Source of the DNA: an uncultured Actinomycetes bacterium
Lineage (GTDB): Bacteria > Actinomycetota > Actinomycetes > Nanopelagicales > Nanopelagicaceae
NCBI GenBank assembly: GCA_903821145.1
Contig: CAIJKC010000074.1
Span: forward strand, 1-45,987
Reading direction: 5' to 3'
DNA: 45,987 nt
Both the position numbers and the translations under genes were made by a program. The notes beneath the pieces are model-generated. The model was not told the DNA's origin. It searched no databases and saw nothing but the letters and a program-made list of their open reading frames with translations. Shown here piece after piece: positions 37,569-45,987 of the stretch (position 1 is the stretch's first letter; every line of letters begins with the position of its first letter).

Positions 37569-38867
37569 TTAGTTGCGAATCTGTCCCGCGCATGAATCGA
37601 CAGGGGGTGCCTTTGTTTTCGTTGGAGTTGGCAGCGGGGTAGGCGTGCTTGTTGGAGTTGGGGCCTGGCTCACATTGAATTCAATGGGCAGCTCAGTGGC
37701 TGCATGCGTACCAGATTGATCGGTGAAGTAAACGACCCCTAGATAGTCACCTGCAACGAGAGAATTGACCGTGATGGTCCAACGACCTGTCGCTGCACGC
37801 TTTACTGTCTGGGTTCCAATAGTCATGGCATCGTCGAGGGATTTGAAACGCACGGTTCCCGTAACGACAGGCGTCCCATCTGGACGCAGAACATCGACTG
37901 TGACAATGAGTGGGTCCGCAGTTGTATTGGCACTCTGACTGACGATCTGCATAGTCGTTGCTTCGTTCTGGGGGAGTGAATCAGCTGGCTCTGGAGTCCA
38001 CGTGCCATGGGTGAGGGCAAGAAATTTTGTTGTGTTGCCAGCAAAGAGATTGAGGTCCACGCGAGTTCCCGGGACACCATACTTACCGGCGATTCCACAC
38101 GATGAGTACTGCCAGAACTGCCATTGCGCTGTGCAATTAGCGTTGCTCCACGGGTGTGCGAAGCACCCACCGGATTTGGAATTTGGTTGTGAGGTGGAGA
38201 TGGCTGGGTCAATTGAATAGTGCGCCATCCAGAGTGGGTATTGACGTAGCACGGGATCACCAGCCATCGCCCCCTCTAAGAATTGCGCGTATGAGTAGAA
38301 GATTGGTTTGCGATGAGATTTCTTTGCAACGCTGGCAAGCCACGTCTTTGCCCACAGCGTCACATTGGCCCGTGACATATATTTTGTGCAGGTACCAGAG
38401 TTATTCACACGCTGACAGTTATTTTCAAGGTCGAGAGCAACAGGCAAATCGCGTGCGTTATAGCCACCAATCTGCCCAATGCGCCAGATGACTTTGCGAG
38501 CCTGGGCATTTGCATCGTTGATGATAAAAGTTGGATCTGAGCTATCTGGCAGGTAGGCGTAATAATAGAAGCCGGTATAGAGATGGGCTTTCTGGGCTGC
38601 TAGTCGATCAACGAGCAGATACTTGAGCGCCATCGCATCAGCTGCCGTTTGTGCATCCCCGCCCTTGATCATGACAAAGCGAATCCCTGCCGAATACATC
38701 TTCTTAAAGTCGATAGGCGCACCACCTGCATGGTTCCAATGGCTCACATCAAGTCCTGCGATCCGCCCACCTGGTCCCAACTGGGCGATCTTGGCTGGCG
38801 ATAGCGCCCAGACAGAATCTGTGAGGAGAGTAAGGCAAAGCGCAAGTGCAATGAGAAGACGTTTCAC
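37569..38867 (-). CDS. Secreted GH25 lysozyme-like protein with Ig-like domain
   Basis: Protein of 432 residues. A signal peptide (1-21, MKRLLIALALCLTLLTDSV...) precedes a glycoside hydrolase 25 domain (about 35-265) with LDVSHWN at its start, FVMIKGG, the catalytic acid region ALDLENN, and WQFWQYSS near its end. It is followed by an Ig-like domain (about 305-400, PLIVTVDVLRPDGTPVVTGTV) and a Pro/Thr-rich tail. Family members cut the glycan strands of peptidoglycan. GTG start, overlapping the stop of the small gene upstream (GTGA), so the two are coupled. Confidence 0.85.
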   Translation of the reverse strand: MKRLLIALALCLTLLTDSVWALSPAKIAQLGPGGRIAGLDVSHWNHAGGAPIDFKKMYSAGIRFVMIKGGDAQTAADAMALKYLLVDRLAAQKAHLYTGFYYYAYLPDSSDPTFIINDANAQARKVIWRIGQIGGYNARDLPVALDLENNCQRVNNSGTCTKYMSRANVTLWAKTWLASVAKKSHRKPIFYSYAQFLEGAMAGDPVLRQYPLWMAHYSIDPAISTSQPNSKSGGCFAHPWSNANCTAQWQFWQYSSCGIAGKYGVPGTRVDLNLFAGNTTKFLALTHGTWTPEPADSLPQNEATTMQIVSQSANTTADPLIVTVDVLRPDGTPVVTGTVRFKSLDDAMTIGTQTVKRAATGRWTITVNSLVAGDYLGVVYFTDQSGTHAATELPIEFNVSQAPTPTSTPTPLPTPTKTKAPPVDSCAGQIRN

Positions 38868-39213: not shown

Positions 39214-41379
<2,166 letters not shown>

Positions 41380-41390
41380 TTTCACGCGAG

Positions 41391-41464
41391 TGGGGCGGGT
41401 CGGGCTCGAACCGACGACGACGGAATTATGAGTTCCGGGCTCTAACCAACTGAGCTACCGCCCC
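41391..41464 (-). tRNA. tRNA-Met (anticodon CAT), CCA not encoded
   Basis: Cloverleaf of 74 bases on the minus strand. Acceptor GGGGCGG/CCGCCCC is fully paired, D arm GCTCAGTTGGTTAGAGC, anticodon stem CGGAA/TTCCG with loop CTCATAA, T arm GTCGG-TTCGAGC-CCGAC, discriminator A. A paired first base argues against initiator tRNA. Elongator Met is most likely; an Ile tRNA with modified CAT (TilS substrate) cannot be excluded. Confidence 0.92.
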
Positions 41465-41497: not shown

Positions 41498-42622
41498 CTA
41501 GTTACGAGCCACACCTAAGACACCCAAGCACATCTCATCGGATGAGCCTTCTCCCCATGTCACATAACGAGGCGCAACCTTCTTTAATTGCGGCAATATT
41601 GCGCGAAGTGAGGGGTCAAAGGTGCACTGAACACGGACCACATCGCCCACCTTGAGAACGACTGGCTTACTGAGAACCGTGGGGGATTGGTCATCAAAGT
41701 TATAGCGAGGCCGATCAAGGAGTATTTTCTCGCCAGGTGTTCCTGGGTTGAGGATCATGCGCAGAGATTTTCCAAGCAAATGCATATGTGGGGTTGCCTT
41801 GACAACAGTCTCGCTCTGGGTGATTATGCGATCGCACGTCGAGGTGTTATTGGGAGTTGGCTTAAAGGCGCTTTGACCACAAAGTAAATTCAGGCCAGCC
41901 GATTCCATCGCACTTGCCGTACTTGTTCTACGGGCAAGGTCAATAAGAGATTTGCTTCGATCGCAGAGGTCCCCGCTCACTCCGGTTGGGCACGCTAGTT
42001 CAACAGGAGCTGGGAAGAGATCAGCATAAAGGGCTTTAAGACGTGAGCCAGCTGCCGGTGCAGTAGTGAGAACAACACTTGACCGATCCTTCGGAGTCGA
42101 ACCAAAATCAATAGCTAAGAGGTTGTAGTGAATCTGAATAACGAGGAGGTCACCCTTTGCGATGGGTGTCCCATAGCCAGCTGGCATCACATCGGTATTT
42201 CGACCTGGTGCCCAAGAGGAGAGCCATGGGGTTGTGAGAAAGGATGAGAAGGATGAACCAAGACCTGATCCACCAAAGCAGGACCAGCCTGCACCGTTAT
42301 TGTCGAGTGCAAGCGCATCTGCACGGTCCTTCTGTGTAATTTGAAAGAGAATCATGTGATGGACAAGGAGCTTTTGCTGGGGCTTGAAGGTGACCGCTGT
42401 GATGATGGAGTTCGTTGAGACATGAGGATCAATGACAAAGCAGTGATAGTCATCTGTTCCACCATTAGTAGGAGCCGGTTGATACTCCTTGCTCATTGTG
42501 GCGGTGAAGGCGCGGGAGGTGCTAGCGGAGTTCGTTGCACTCGCAATTGGCATGATGGAAACCACCATGATGAGAGTTACGGGCAAGAGCAGGGCTGCGA
42601 GGGTCAGGCGAAGTGACTTCAT
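41498..42622 (-). CDS. Secreted copper type II monooxygenase-like protein (PHM/DBH family)
   Basis: Protein of 374 residues from ATG 42622, which has TAGAAT seven bases upstream; the longer open frame beginning at 42778 would cross the divergent gene. A signal peptide (about 1-27, MKSLRLTLAALLLPVTL...) precedes two domains like peptidylglycine hydroxylating and dopamine beta-monooxygenases: N-terminal with DDYHCFVID and the HHMILFQI copper pair, then IQIHYN; C-terminal with the HxH motif TPHMHLLG and the methionine in GEGSSDEMCLG. Conserved cysteines (HCF, WSCFGG, LACP, TSTCDR, QCTF, EMCLG) suggest disulfides. A copper-dependent oxidation outside the cell is inferred; the substrate is unknown. 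Confidence 0.75.
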   Translation of the reverse strand: MKSLRLTLAALLLPVTLIMVVSIMPIASATNSASTSRAFTATMSKEYQPAPTNGGTDDYHCFVIDPHVSTNSIITAVTFKPQQKLLVHHMILFQITQKDRADALALDNNGAGWSCFGGSGLGSSFSSFLTTPWLSSWAPGRNTDVMPAGYGTPIAKGDLLVIQIHYNLLAIDFGSTPKDRSSVVLTTAPAAGSRLKALYADLFPAPVELACPTGVSGDLCDRSKSLIDLARRTSTASAMESAGLNLLCGQSAFKPTPNNTSTCDRIITQSETVVKATPHMHLLGKSLRMILNPGTPGEKILLDRPRYNFDDQSPTVLSKPVVLKVGDVVRVQCTFDPSLRAILPQLKKVAPRYVTWGEGSSDEMCLGVLGVARN

Positions 42623-42684: not shown

Positions 42685-45159
42685 GTGAAGAGGTTAACCC
42701 CCATCCCTGCTCTGATTGCTTCGACCTCGATAGCCCTTCTGGGAATCTTCGTAGTTGCTCCTGAGAGAGCTTTGGCATCGCAACAGATCACCATTACAGA
42801 ACAACGCATCAACGGTGCAGGTGGTGTCACACTCGATACATCGTTGTATTTACCTCTGAAGATTCCGGCTCCAGCAATTCTCTTAGCGCATGGCTTCACT
42901 GGCGATAAGAGTTCGGTAGCGGTGCAGGCAAAAATGTTAGCCGAGCATGGGTATGTAGTTCTTGCCTGGACAGCTCGTGGATTTGGTAAATCAACGGGTG
43001 AGATCACGATGAATTCACCCAATGGCGAAGTGGCAGATGTTTCACATCTCATCGATTATCTTGCAACCCGCAAAGAAGTAATTCAACAGGGCACAAAGGA
43101 TCCGCTTGTTGGAATCACCGGCGACTCCTACGGTGGGGCGGTCTCTCTTTTGACCGCTGGCTATGATCATCGCATCGATGCGGTGGCAGCAAATATCACG
43201 TGGAGTAATTTGAGCAACGATCTCTTTCCGCAAAATTCACAGGATCCAAGCTACGGTCCTTATAAGAAGTTCTGGGCCGGTACTTTCTTCGCTCTAGCAG
43301 CTCTTCCTAATGCCTTTGGCGGGGAATGCGGCACCTTCTCTAAAACGTGGTGCACTGCTTTTAAAGATGCGGTAGCAACGGGAGTCCCTACTGCGGCAGA
43401 TGAGAAGCTACTACTAGCCTCATCACCATCAACAATCGCCTCCAAGATCACCGCGCCGACACTCCTTATGCAAGGTGAAGCGGACTCACTCTTTCCGCTC
43501 ACTGATTCAATCGCCAATGCCACAGCAATTCATCAAGGTCACCCTGATGTTCCCATTGCCATGATCTGGCATAGCGGTGGCCATGATGGCGGCACCGATG
43601 AAACAAAACGCCTCCAACTTGCTACATCACGGTGGTTTGATAAATATTTGTTGCATCAGAAGATCGCCTTCCCCGCATTCCAGGTCACAGATACCAATGG
43701 TTCGATCTCCCTTATTGATTCCTCGGTGATCCCAAAGTTGCTTCAAAGTAATGTTCTTCCAACGGCTCCTGTCTATTCCACTATTCCGATTACCACGCCC
43801 TTCGCAGCTCTCATCGCCCCAATCGGTGGAATCCCTGGGGCAATCTCTTCACTGCCTGGAGTGGGATCGGCGTTATCTTTGGCTGGAAATATTGGGGGAG
43901 TATCAGCCGCGTTCTTACCTGGGCAGAGTGGTTTCTTAGAGACAGAGCCACTGACGCATCCACTGAGCATCGTTGGACCCTCACATGTGAGCGTAAAGGT
44001 CTCATCCAACAAAAGCGATGCCACCCTCTTCTTCTCACTCGTCATTCGCACTGCATCTGGTCAGACAAAGCAACCCAATGGCATCGTGGCACCCGTCCAC
44101 TTATCGCACTTGGCTGCAACCGGATCTCTCTTCACGATTAATCTGCCTGCGGTTGTGCTGGATGCAGCAGTGGGTGACAAGCTAGCAGTTGCGATTTCAA
44201 CTACCGATCAGGGTTATGCAATGCCAGCAGATGGCCGCCTCTATACCGTTACTGTGGCGAGCCCATTGAGTTACTCACACCCACTCTTCACCTCATCTAA
44301 GGGCAAAGGTGCACTCTTCACCTGGCCTCTCGTTGCTGTTGTTGTTCTTATTCTCTCGATCTGGATGATCTATCTGCGCAGGCCCCGTCATAACACCGAG
44401 CCGGTTGAACCAACTGATTCACTCGTCACGGTAAGCAACCTGTCCAAGGTCTATAAGGATGGTTATAAGGCCGTTGATAATCTCTCCTTCCACGTCAAGC
44501 GAGGACAAGTTCTTGGATTGCTTGGCCCAAATGGGGCAGGCAAGACAACAACTCTTCGCATGATGATGGGCCTGATCTACCCAACTGAGGGTGAGATCAG
44601 CATTAACGGAAAGCCGATCTATCCAGGGTCTCCAACACTTGCCGAGCTTGGATCCTTCGTTGAAGGATCAGGATTCTTACCGCATCTTTCTGGTCGGGAA
44701 AATCTTGATCTCTACTGGAAATCAATTGGCCGCACTGATGACCCATTCTTTGATGAGGCAGTGAAGATCACCGATCTTGGCAATGCTCTGGATAAGAAGG
44801 TTCGTTCCTATTCACAAGGTATGCGACAGCGCCTAGCGATTGCCCAAGCGATGCTTGGCATGCCAGATCTGCTGGTTCTTGATGAACCAACAAATGGCTT
44901 GGACCCCCAACAAATTAAGGCTATGCGTGAAGTCCTGAAGGATTACGCCAAGACTGGCCGCACAGTAATTGTCTCCTCACACCTGCTCTCAGAAGTGGAG
45001 CAGACCTGTTCCCACGTGGTCTTGATGCACCGTGGAAAATTGATCGCCTTTGGAACTCTCAAGAACATCCTCACAAAGGCGGGCAAGAAAGCGGGTTCCC
45101 TTGAGGAGATCTTTATCGAGCTCATCGGTGATGACCTGACGATCGGAAAGGAGTCCTAG
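42685..45159 (+). CDS. Fusion of secreted alpha/beta-hydrolase and ABC transporter ATPase
   Basis: Protein of 824 residues in one open frame. Residues 1-32 are a signal sequence or anchor. The hydrolase (about 35-330, CocE/S15-like) has the nucleophile Ser148 in GDSYG, the likely acid Asp267 in GEADSLFP and His300 in SGGHDGG. A beta-rich domain follows (about 420-530). One membrane segment (544-563, LFTWPLVAVVVLILSIWMIY) ends in RRPRH, which by the positive-inside rule places the rest in the cytoplasm. The ABC ATPase (about 578-810) is complete: Walker A GPNGAGKTT (614-622), signature YSQGMRQR, Walker B LLVLDEP, H-loop SSHLLS. An ABC-2 permease gene follows. Hydrolysis outside thus seems physically tied to an exporter motor inside. 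GTG start. Confidence 0.88.
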   Translation: MKRLTPIPALIASTSIALLGIFVVAPERALASQQITITEQRINGAGGVTLDTSLYLPLKIPAPAILLAHGFTGDKSSVAVQAKMLAEHGYVVLAWTARGFGKSTGEITMNSPNGEVADVSHLIDYLATRKEVIQQGTKDPLVGITGDSYGGAVSLLTAGYDHRIDAVAANITWSNLSNDLFPQNSQDPSYGPYKKFWAGTFFALAALPNAFGGECGTFSKTWCTAFKDAVATGVPTAADEKLLLASSPSTIASKITAPTLLMQGEADSLFPLTDSIANATAIHQGHPDVPIAMIWHSGGHDGGTDETKRLQLATSRWFDKYLLHQKIAFPAFQVTDTNGSISLIDSSVIPKLLQSNVLPTAPVYSTIPITTPFAALIAPIGGIPGAISSLPGVGSALSLAGNIGGVSAAFLPGQSGFLETEPLTHPLSIVGPSHVSVKVSSNKSDATLFFSLVIRTASGQTKQPNGIVAPVHLSHLAATGSLFTINLPAVVLDAAVGDKLAVAISTTDQGYAMPADGRLYTVTVASPLSYSHPLFTSSKGKGALFTWPLVAVVVLILSIWMIYLRRPRHNTEPVEPTDSLVTVSNLSKVYKDGYKAVDNLSFHVKRGQVLGLLGPNGAGKTTTLRMMMGLIYPTEGEISINGKPIYPGSPTLAELGSFVEGSGFLPHLSGRENLDLYWKSIGRTDDPFFDEAVKITDLGNALDKKVRSYSQGMRQRLAIAQAMLGMPDLLVLDEPTNGLDPQQIKAMREVLKDYAKTGRTVIVSSHLLSEVEQTCSHVVLMHRGKLIAFGTLKNILTKAGKKAGSLEEIFIELIGDDLTIGKES

Positions 45160-45160
45160 T

Positions 45161-45987
45161 ATGTATTCGCCACGGACCACACTTCCATACCGCGTTGAGA
45201 TGTATCGACAACTCAAGCGAAAGCGCACCTTCTTTGCTTATCTCTTTGTGATGTCACTACCAATTATCGTTGCACTCGCTGTGAAATTTGGAACGACAGG
45301 CAATAGCACGGGCCCTACTCGCTTTGGTGCGGGGACTGCTGACCTCATAGGTCTTGCTACTAAGGGCGCTGCAAATTTCACTGCCACGATGTTCTACTTC
45401 GCCACGCCATTCCTCTTGATCGCAGTAGTGGCACTCTTTAATGGTGACACTGTTGCGTCAGAGGCTTCCTGGTCAACTCTGCGTTACCTACTTGCCGCCC
45501 CCGTACCACGAGCAAGGCTGCTTGTGCAGAAGTTGAAGGTGAGCCTGACACTCTCTGCTGTTGGAATTCTCTTGCTCGCTGGAACCTCATTTGCTGTGGG
45601 AGCTCTCGCCTTTGGCACTGCGCCCCTGCAGACGCCACTTGGTGTGACGATGGCCAACCCACTTGCAATTGAGCGTCTGGCGATAGTCGCTGGATATCTG
45701 GCAATCACGCTTCTTGTCGTAGCAGCAATCGCCTTCTATTTTAGTGTCACTACTGATGTTCCCCTTGGAGCTGTTGGGGGAGCGATCGGCATCATGATCC
45801 TCTCGAATATCTTGGACGCAATCACAGGACTTGGGTCACTTCGCAATGGGCTGCCTAGCCACTTCTCATTTTCTTGGTTTGATGCGCTCTCCAGTGAGAT
45901 CGACTGGACACAGATGATTCGTGGCGCCGCCTATGCCGTAATTCTCGCGGCGATTCTGACCTCTCTTTCATTCATTCGATTTGCGAA
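45161..45987 (+). CDS. ABC-2 type permease (3' end outside window)
   Basis: Open frame of 275 codons that runs off the window. Begins MYSPRTTLPYRVEMYRQLKR, then has about six hydrophobic segments: residues 24-43, about 72-92, about 130-150, about 175-198, about 203-223 and about 255-272. Between the first two lies an extracellular loop; GDTVASEASWSTLRYLLAAP is the hallmark coupling region of ABC-2 permeases. AAGGAG lies eight bases before the ATG, one base after the fusion's stop. It is therefore the membrane part of the transporter driven by the fused ATPase. Confidence 0.9.
   Translation, partial: MYSPRTTLPYRVEMYRQLKRKRTFFAYLFVMSLPIIVALAVKFGTTGNSTGPTRFGAGTADLIGLATKGAANFTATMFYFATPFLLIAVVALFNGDTVASEASWSTLRYLLAAPVPRARLLVQKLKVSLTLSAVGILLLAGTSFAVGALAFGTAPLQTPLGVTMANPLAIERLAIVAGYLAITLLVVAAIAFYFSVTTDVPLGAVGGAIGIMILSNILDAITGLGSLRNGLPSHFSFSWFDALSSEIDWTQMIRGAAYAVILAAILTSLSFIRFA

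Follow-up and report, generated by a model that had tools for sequence, protein, structure and literature searches.

The prodrug-activating serine peptidases ZmaM, EdeA and PamJ are fused to parts of ABC transporters, an extracytoplasmic serine hydrolase and a C-terminal ABC part forming one chain with the enzyme outside and the motor inside (PMC9889268). Their hydrolase is of the S12 type (PF00144), it is fused to a half-transporter, and the genes lie inside biosynthetic clusters, mainly in Firmicutes. The antimicrobial peptide exporters LanFEG and BcrAB have an ABC-2 type permease adjoining the ATPase gene, a single one in BcrAB (PMC4239024). Their ATPase is a free cytoplasmic subunit without an extracellular domain. 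A Peptidase_S15 domain followed by PepX_C, with a Ser/Asp/His triad, is the arrangement of CocE/NonD enzymes and Xaa-Pro dipeptidyl-peptidases (MEROPS S15), of which the known members are free enzymes. CocE has an oxyanion tyrosine, LanF has Glu at the Q-loop position, and the ABC-2 systems of the LanF/BcrA/DrrA kind export drugs or peptides of hydrophobic character. Here we describe an actinobacterial protein in which an S15-type hydrolase and an ABC ATPase share one chain, with an ABC-2 permease gene directly behind it. A search of open-access papers found none describing an S15–ABC fusion. RefSeq WP_232066410.1 (Tsukamurella tyrosinosolvens), which has the same fused architecture and an overlapping 'ABC transporter permease' directly downstream, carries only the automatic name 'alpha/beta fold hydrolase', with the ATPase part unmentioned.

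The protein is encoded in a window of 45,987 nucleotides, the whole stretch of DNA analysed, which lies on one contig of a 1.3-Mb genome that is 98% complete. Its gene (42685..45159, +) starts with GTG and, as the preliminary description had read it, runs through 824 codons without interruption. The 824-residue product joins a putatively secreted S15-type hydrolase, a membrane helix and an ABC ATPase, as delimited by the open frame and its Pfam domains, and the same parts are fused in more than 60 loci. ZmaM is the nearest precedent for the logic of such a protein, though its hydrolase and transporter parts are unrelated: the hydrolase here is S15 instead of S12 (Pfam found no PF00144 match in the window protein), and it is fused to the ATPase only, with the ABC-2 permease in a separate gene, where the ZmaM group has the ABC membrane domain and the ATPase in one chain. 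No excess of promoters or terminators was seen in the fusion region.

The N-terminal half has the predicted anatomy of an exported enzyme. Residues 1–32 (42685..42780, +) read as a probable Sec signal peptide, with a hydrophobic core at about residues 7–25 (hydropathy 2.29) and ALA-SQ at its end. A Peptidase_S15/CocE-like alpha/beta hydrolase domain follows at residues 47–300 (42823..43584, +; PF02129, E 6.8e-18), scoring 65.7 bits against a curated Pfam cut-off of 23. Its catalytic residues Ser148 (43126), Asp267 (43483) and His300 (43582) are invariant in the alignment of 47 fused homologues (47/47). Between the hydrolase and the membrane helix lies a second domain of secreted type that the preliminary description had missed, a PepX_C-like beta-sandwich at residues 419–516 (43939..44232, +; PF08530, E 9.1e-6), which passes its cut-off in the window protein (26.2 versus 22.5 bits) and more strongly in homologues (E down to 1.7e-14). 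At the level of named families the window protein stays below the NCBIfam cut-off for CocE_NonD (52.1 versus 66.3), which a Streptomyces-like homologue exceeds (109.2), and far below that of the Xaa-Pro dipeptidyl-peptidase model NF003780 (23.7 versus 642 bits). As read from the alignment, the strand that would correspond to the one with the CocE oxyanion tyrosine ends in HGF.

Hydropathy gives just two hydrophobic segments in the whole fusion, the N-terminal one and residues 544–562, the latter within a single membrane helix at about residues 542–564 (44308..44376, +; hydropathy 2.48) that coincides with a low-confidence AlphaFold helix at 541–564. The sequence YLRRPRH follows the segment 544–562, and nearly all fused homologues have basic residues after the helix. 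By the positive-inside rule this would place the hydrolase and the PepX_C domain outside the cell and the ATPase in the cytoplasm, the topology proposed beforehand; neither hydropathy nor the charge rule put both domains on one side of the membrane. AlphaFold models from shallow alignments reached a mean pLDDT of 51 for the hydrolase and 49 for the whole fusion, and we therefore claim no contact between domains.

The ABC ATPase domain occupies 44422..45129 (+; PF00005, E 1.3e-30), with the ABC_tran match spanning residues 598–737. Walker A (44524–44547), the signature YSQGM (44809–44823), the Walker B DE (44881–44886) and His766 (44980) are all present. Lys620 of Walker A, Ser710 of the signature and Asp733/Glu734 of Walker B do not vary in 47/47 homologues, and His766 is kept wherever the alignment has a residue at that position (46/46); the intact active sites claimed earlier for both halves are thereby confirmed. 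A point missing from that account is Glu660 at the Q-loop position (44662), which is Glu in 46/47 fused proteins. The best NCBIfam matches are the lantibiotic-protection family (TIGR03740) and DrrA. Since the fusion ATPase is below the cut-off of every NCBIfam family among the matches listed (184.8 versus 309.75 for TIGR03740), its export class is assigned by resemblance, and it appears closest to the LanF/BcrA/DrrA group. Unfused relatives of the ATPase were located in a lantibiotic immunity locus, a lanthionine-synthetase locus and a daptide RiPP cluster. The same genome also encodes an unfused paralogue of the lantibiotic-protection group (contig C18 of G000, L159:828-1760, −; TIGR03740 210.7 bits). 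It, too, has Glu at the Q-loop position, and the adjoining 264-codon frame is probably its permease. As proof of a LanF-type pump this Glu is weakened by two other ATPases of the genome, LivF-like in look, which share it. An anti-phage system was considered and rejected, the PADLOC match being confined to the ATPase part.

The permease gene (45161..45987, +) begins with ATG at 45161, one base past the fusion stop at 45159, exactly as first described. It encodes about six membrane helices and matches ABC2_membrane_4 (PF12730; E 3.9e-6, 27.4 bits versus a cut-off of 27). Alignment with homologues of 281 aa shows that it is short of about 6 residues where the contig ends. No solved relative of the permease was found by sequence. 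In 47/47 first-round loci with enough downstream sequence a permease lies directly 3′ of the fusion, one in each, as in BcrAB, and the same pairing was found at every fused second-round locus, which answers the question of whether the permease always follows. In the closest relatives a small secreted protein is encoded after the permease (L003:8210-8809, L004:9317-9913, L014:9305-9907); that of L003 has an M23 peptidase domain, and the L004 and L014 proteins look alike.

The fused architecture is widespread. One scan of a genome collection found 13 more full-length relatives (65–86% identity) in as many MAGs of uncultured Actinobacteria, all of them fused and all followed by a permease, and a profile of the hydrolase part gave a full or contig-cut match in 29/251 genomes of the order. 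In one genus with Streptomyces-sized genomes, 10 of the 11 genomes for which any match was listed have a frame of about 880–980 residues; a class-wide sample added many families, and the fusion is also present in Tsukamurella and Nonomuraea. Fetched loci were tested with profiles of the three parts (hydrolase, ATPase and permease). Altogether the fused frame was found in more than 60 loci (independent loci are slightly fewer, some genomes being present in two collections) from about 20 verified families of its own class and at least one other class of Actinomycetota. Just two plasmid records cover most of the protein, both actinobacterial. Of 20 second-round loci, 17 have the fused ATPase and the permease, a number that includes L178 (2659-5828, −), where the hydrolase part lies in two overlapping frames through a frameshift or sequencing error and the locus is otherwise fused. 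The other three are stand-alone S15 hydrolases with neither ATPase nor permease nearby, and unfused relatives therefore exist. The preliminary interpretation thus holds for the joint polypeptide, for its out/in topology and for the permease, which followed in every test; any rarity that it may have implied does not hold.

The three parts have also descended together. In three comparisons among the trees of hydrolase, ATPase and permease, the strongly supported conflicts numbered 0, 1 and 0 and the distance correlations were 0.84, 0.85 and 0.90; this near-complete agreement indicates that the parts travelled as one unit. A weakly supported branch (64/42) separates the fused ATPases from seven unfused ones, an arrangement that would allow a single origin of the fusion. 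The simplest history would be one fusion of an S15–PepX_C secreted enzyme to a BcrA/DrrA-like ATPase, followed by inheritance together with the permease.

The upstream window genes that were scanned are housekeeping genes. A GH25 muramidase-like protein (37572-38867, −) and a catalase-peroxidase (39226-41379, +) are also encoded upstream, with similar neighbours in L003 and L004; a tRNA-Met(cat) gene (41390-41464, −) lies between the catalase-peroxidase and the next gene, which is divergent from the fusion gene and encodes a secreted protein resembling copper type II monooxygenases (41498..42616, −). Its matches to PF01082 and PF03712 are both slightly below the curated cut-offs, and by eye its HHM, IHYN, HMH and EMC motifs resemble the copper ligands of PHM/DBM. 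Within this order the gene co-occurs with the fusion (25/29 versus 36/222; Fisher p 6e-14) and usually shares an intergenic region with it. Each is also found without the other, and we therefore treat the copper monooxygenase-like protein as a possible partner, not as a part. An obligate link was rejected: the gene stands alone in many genomes, and the same phmmer search did not detect it in Streptomyces-like and other distant fusion loci. The gene is a neighbour of the fusion in this order only, and a functional link is uncertain. In Streptomyces-like genomes the neighbours of the fusion are an aldehyde dehydrogenase, an amino-acid permease and a VWA lipoprotein.

The explanation that we consider best, and to which we give an even chance, is a two-gene ABC-2 exporter of BcrAB/DrrAB size whose ATPase tethers an extracellular S15/CocE hydrolase that cleaves the exported compound. 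The ATPase subunit of such an exporter would have acquired the serine hydrolase by way of one membrane helix, and, going by ABC-2 exporters in general, one pump would consist of two fusion copies and two permeases. The permease would receive its substrate, a peptide- or ester-like compound of hydrophobic or amphipathic character, from the cytoplasm or the membrane; the inner domain, by hydrolysing ATP, would drive it outward, and the tethered hydrolases, two per pump at the exit, would cleave it. The anatomy and the ZmaM precedent make the proposal of the preliminary description plausible, namely that export or extraction is coupled to surface cleavage. A hydrolase anchored next to a pump would not, all the same, have to act on what the pump exports. 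A general role in the envelope or in detoxification seems likelier to us than the maturation of a single specific product, since the pair is common in the Streptomyces-like genus sampled, where it stands beside metabolic genes, and since it lies among housekeeping genes here. A broader statement, which we hold more tentatively, at somewhat less than an even chance, is that of a phylum-wide class of actinobacterial ABC-2 exporters whose ATPase chain itself bears the extracellular hydrolase. A compound's ATP-driven expulsion would then be physically coupled to its cleavage, and the whole would be a general expel-and-cut machine of the envelope.

A narrower, protective version of this exporter reading is a resistance or immunity device, in which antimicrobial peptides or membrane-active compounds would be cleared from the membrane as by LanFEG or BcrAB and destroyed outside. 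The resemblance of the ATPase to the lantibiotic-protection/BcrA group, the closest among curated families, the Glu at the Q-loop position and the single permease, as in BcrAB (PMC4239024), all point this way. The missed TIGR03740 cut-off and the fact that neither a two-component system nor a LanI-like lipoprotein was seen beside the fusion point the other way, and we think such a device possible but rather unlikely. Export-coupled maturation, by which the pump would secrete an inactive precursor of the cell's own making (a peptide or ester conjugate) and the surface hydrolase would free the active form, draws on the serine peptidases fused to ABC parts in ZmaM, EdeA and PamJ, whose logic of outside hydrolase and export motor is the same. 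It is nevertheless improbable in our view, given that the upstream window genes scanned include no biosynthetic cluster, that the loci examined have no biosynthetic neighbour in common, and that broad occurrence in one large genus speaks against a single special product. We are equally doubtful of a regulated envelope enzyme, for which transport of a soluble compound would not be the point and the ATPase and permease would serve to shift or gate either the hydrolase or a lipid substrate in the turnover of envelope lipids or cell-wall esters: presence in many actinobacterial families is in keeping with it, as are the ABCA-type lipid transporters among the closest solved relatives of the ATPase by sequence, but likeness to ABCA is a generic feature of ATPases of this class, and no lipid-enzyme neighbours were found at the loci examined. 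An error of sequencing or assembly, or chance, joining two genes, the objection raised in the preliminary description, we reject as close to impossible despite the split hydrolase of L178, because more than 60 continuous fused frames recur across independent assemblies, complete single-contig genomes among them.

The exporter with a tethered hydrolase, if the coupling is true, would be a conserved machine for transport and hydrolysis in Streptomyces-like and other tractable actinobacteria, hidden under the name 'alpha/beta fold hydrolase', and the export of drugs or peptides would through it be tied to inactivation or activation at the cell surface. Many Streptomyces-sized genomes carry the fusion and thus offer a ready test case.
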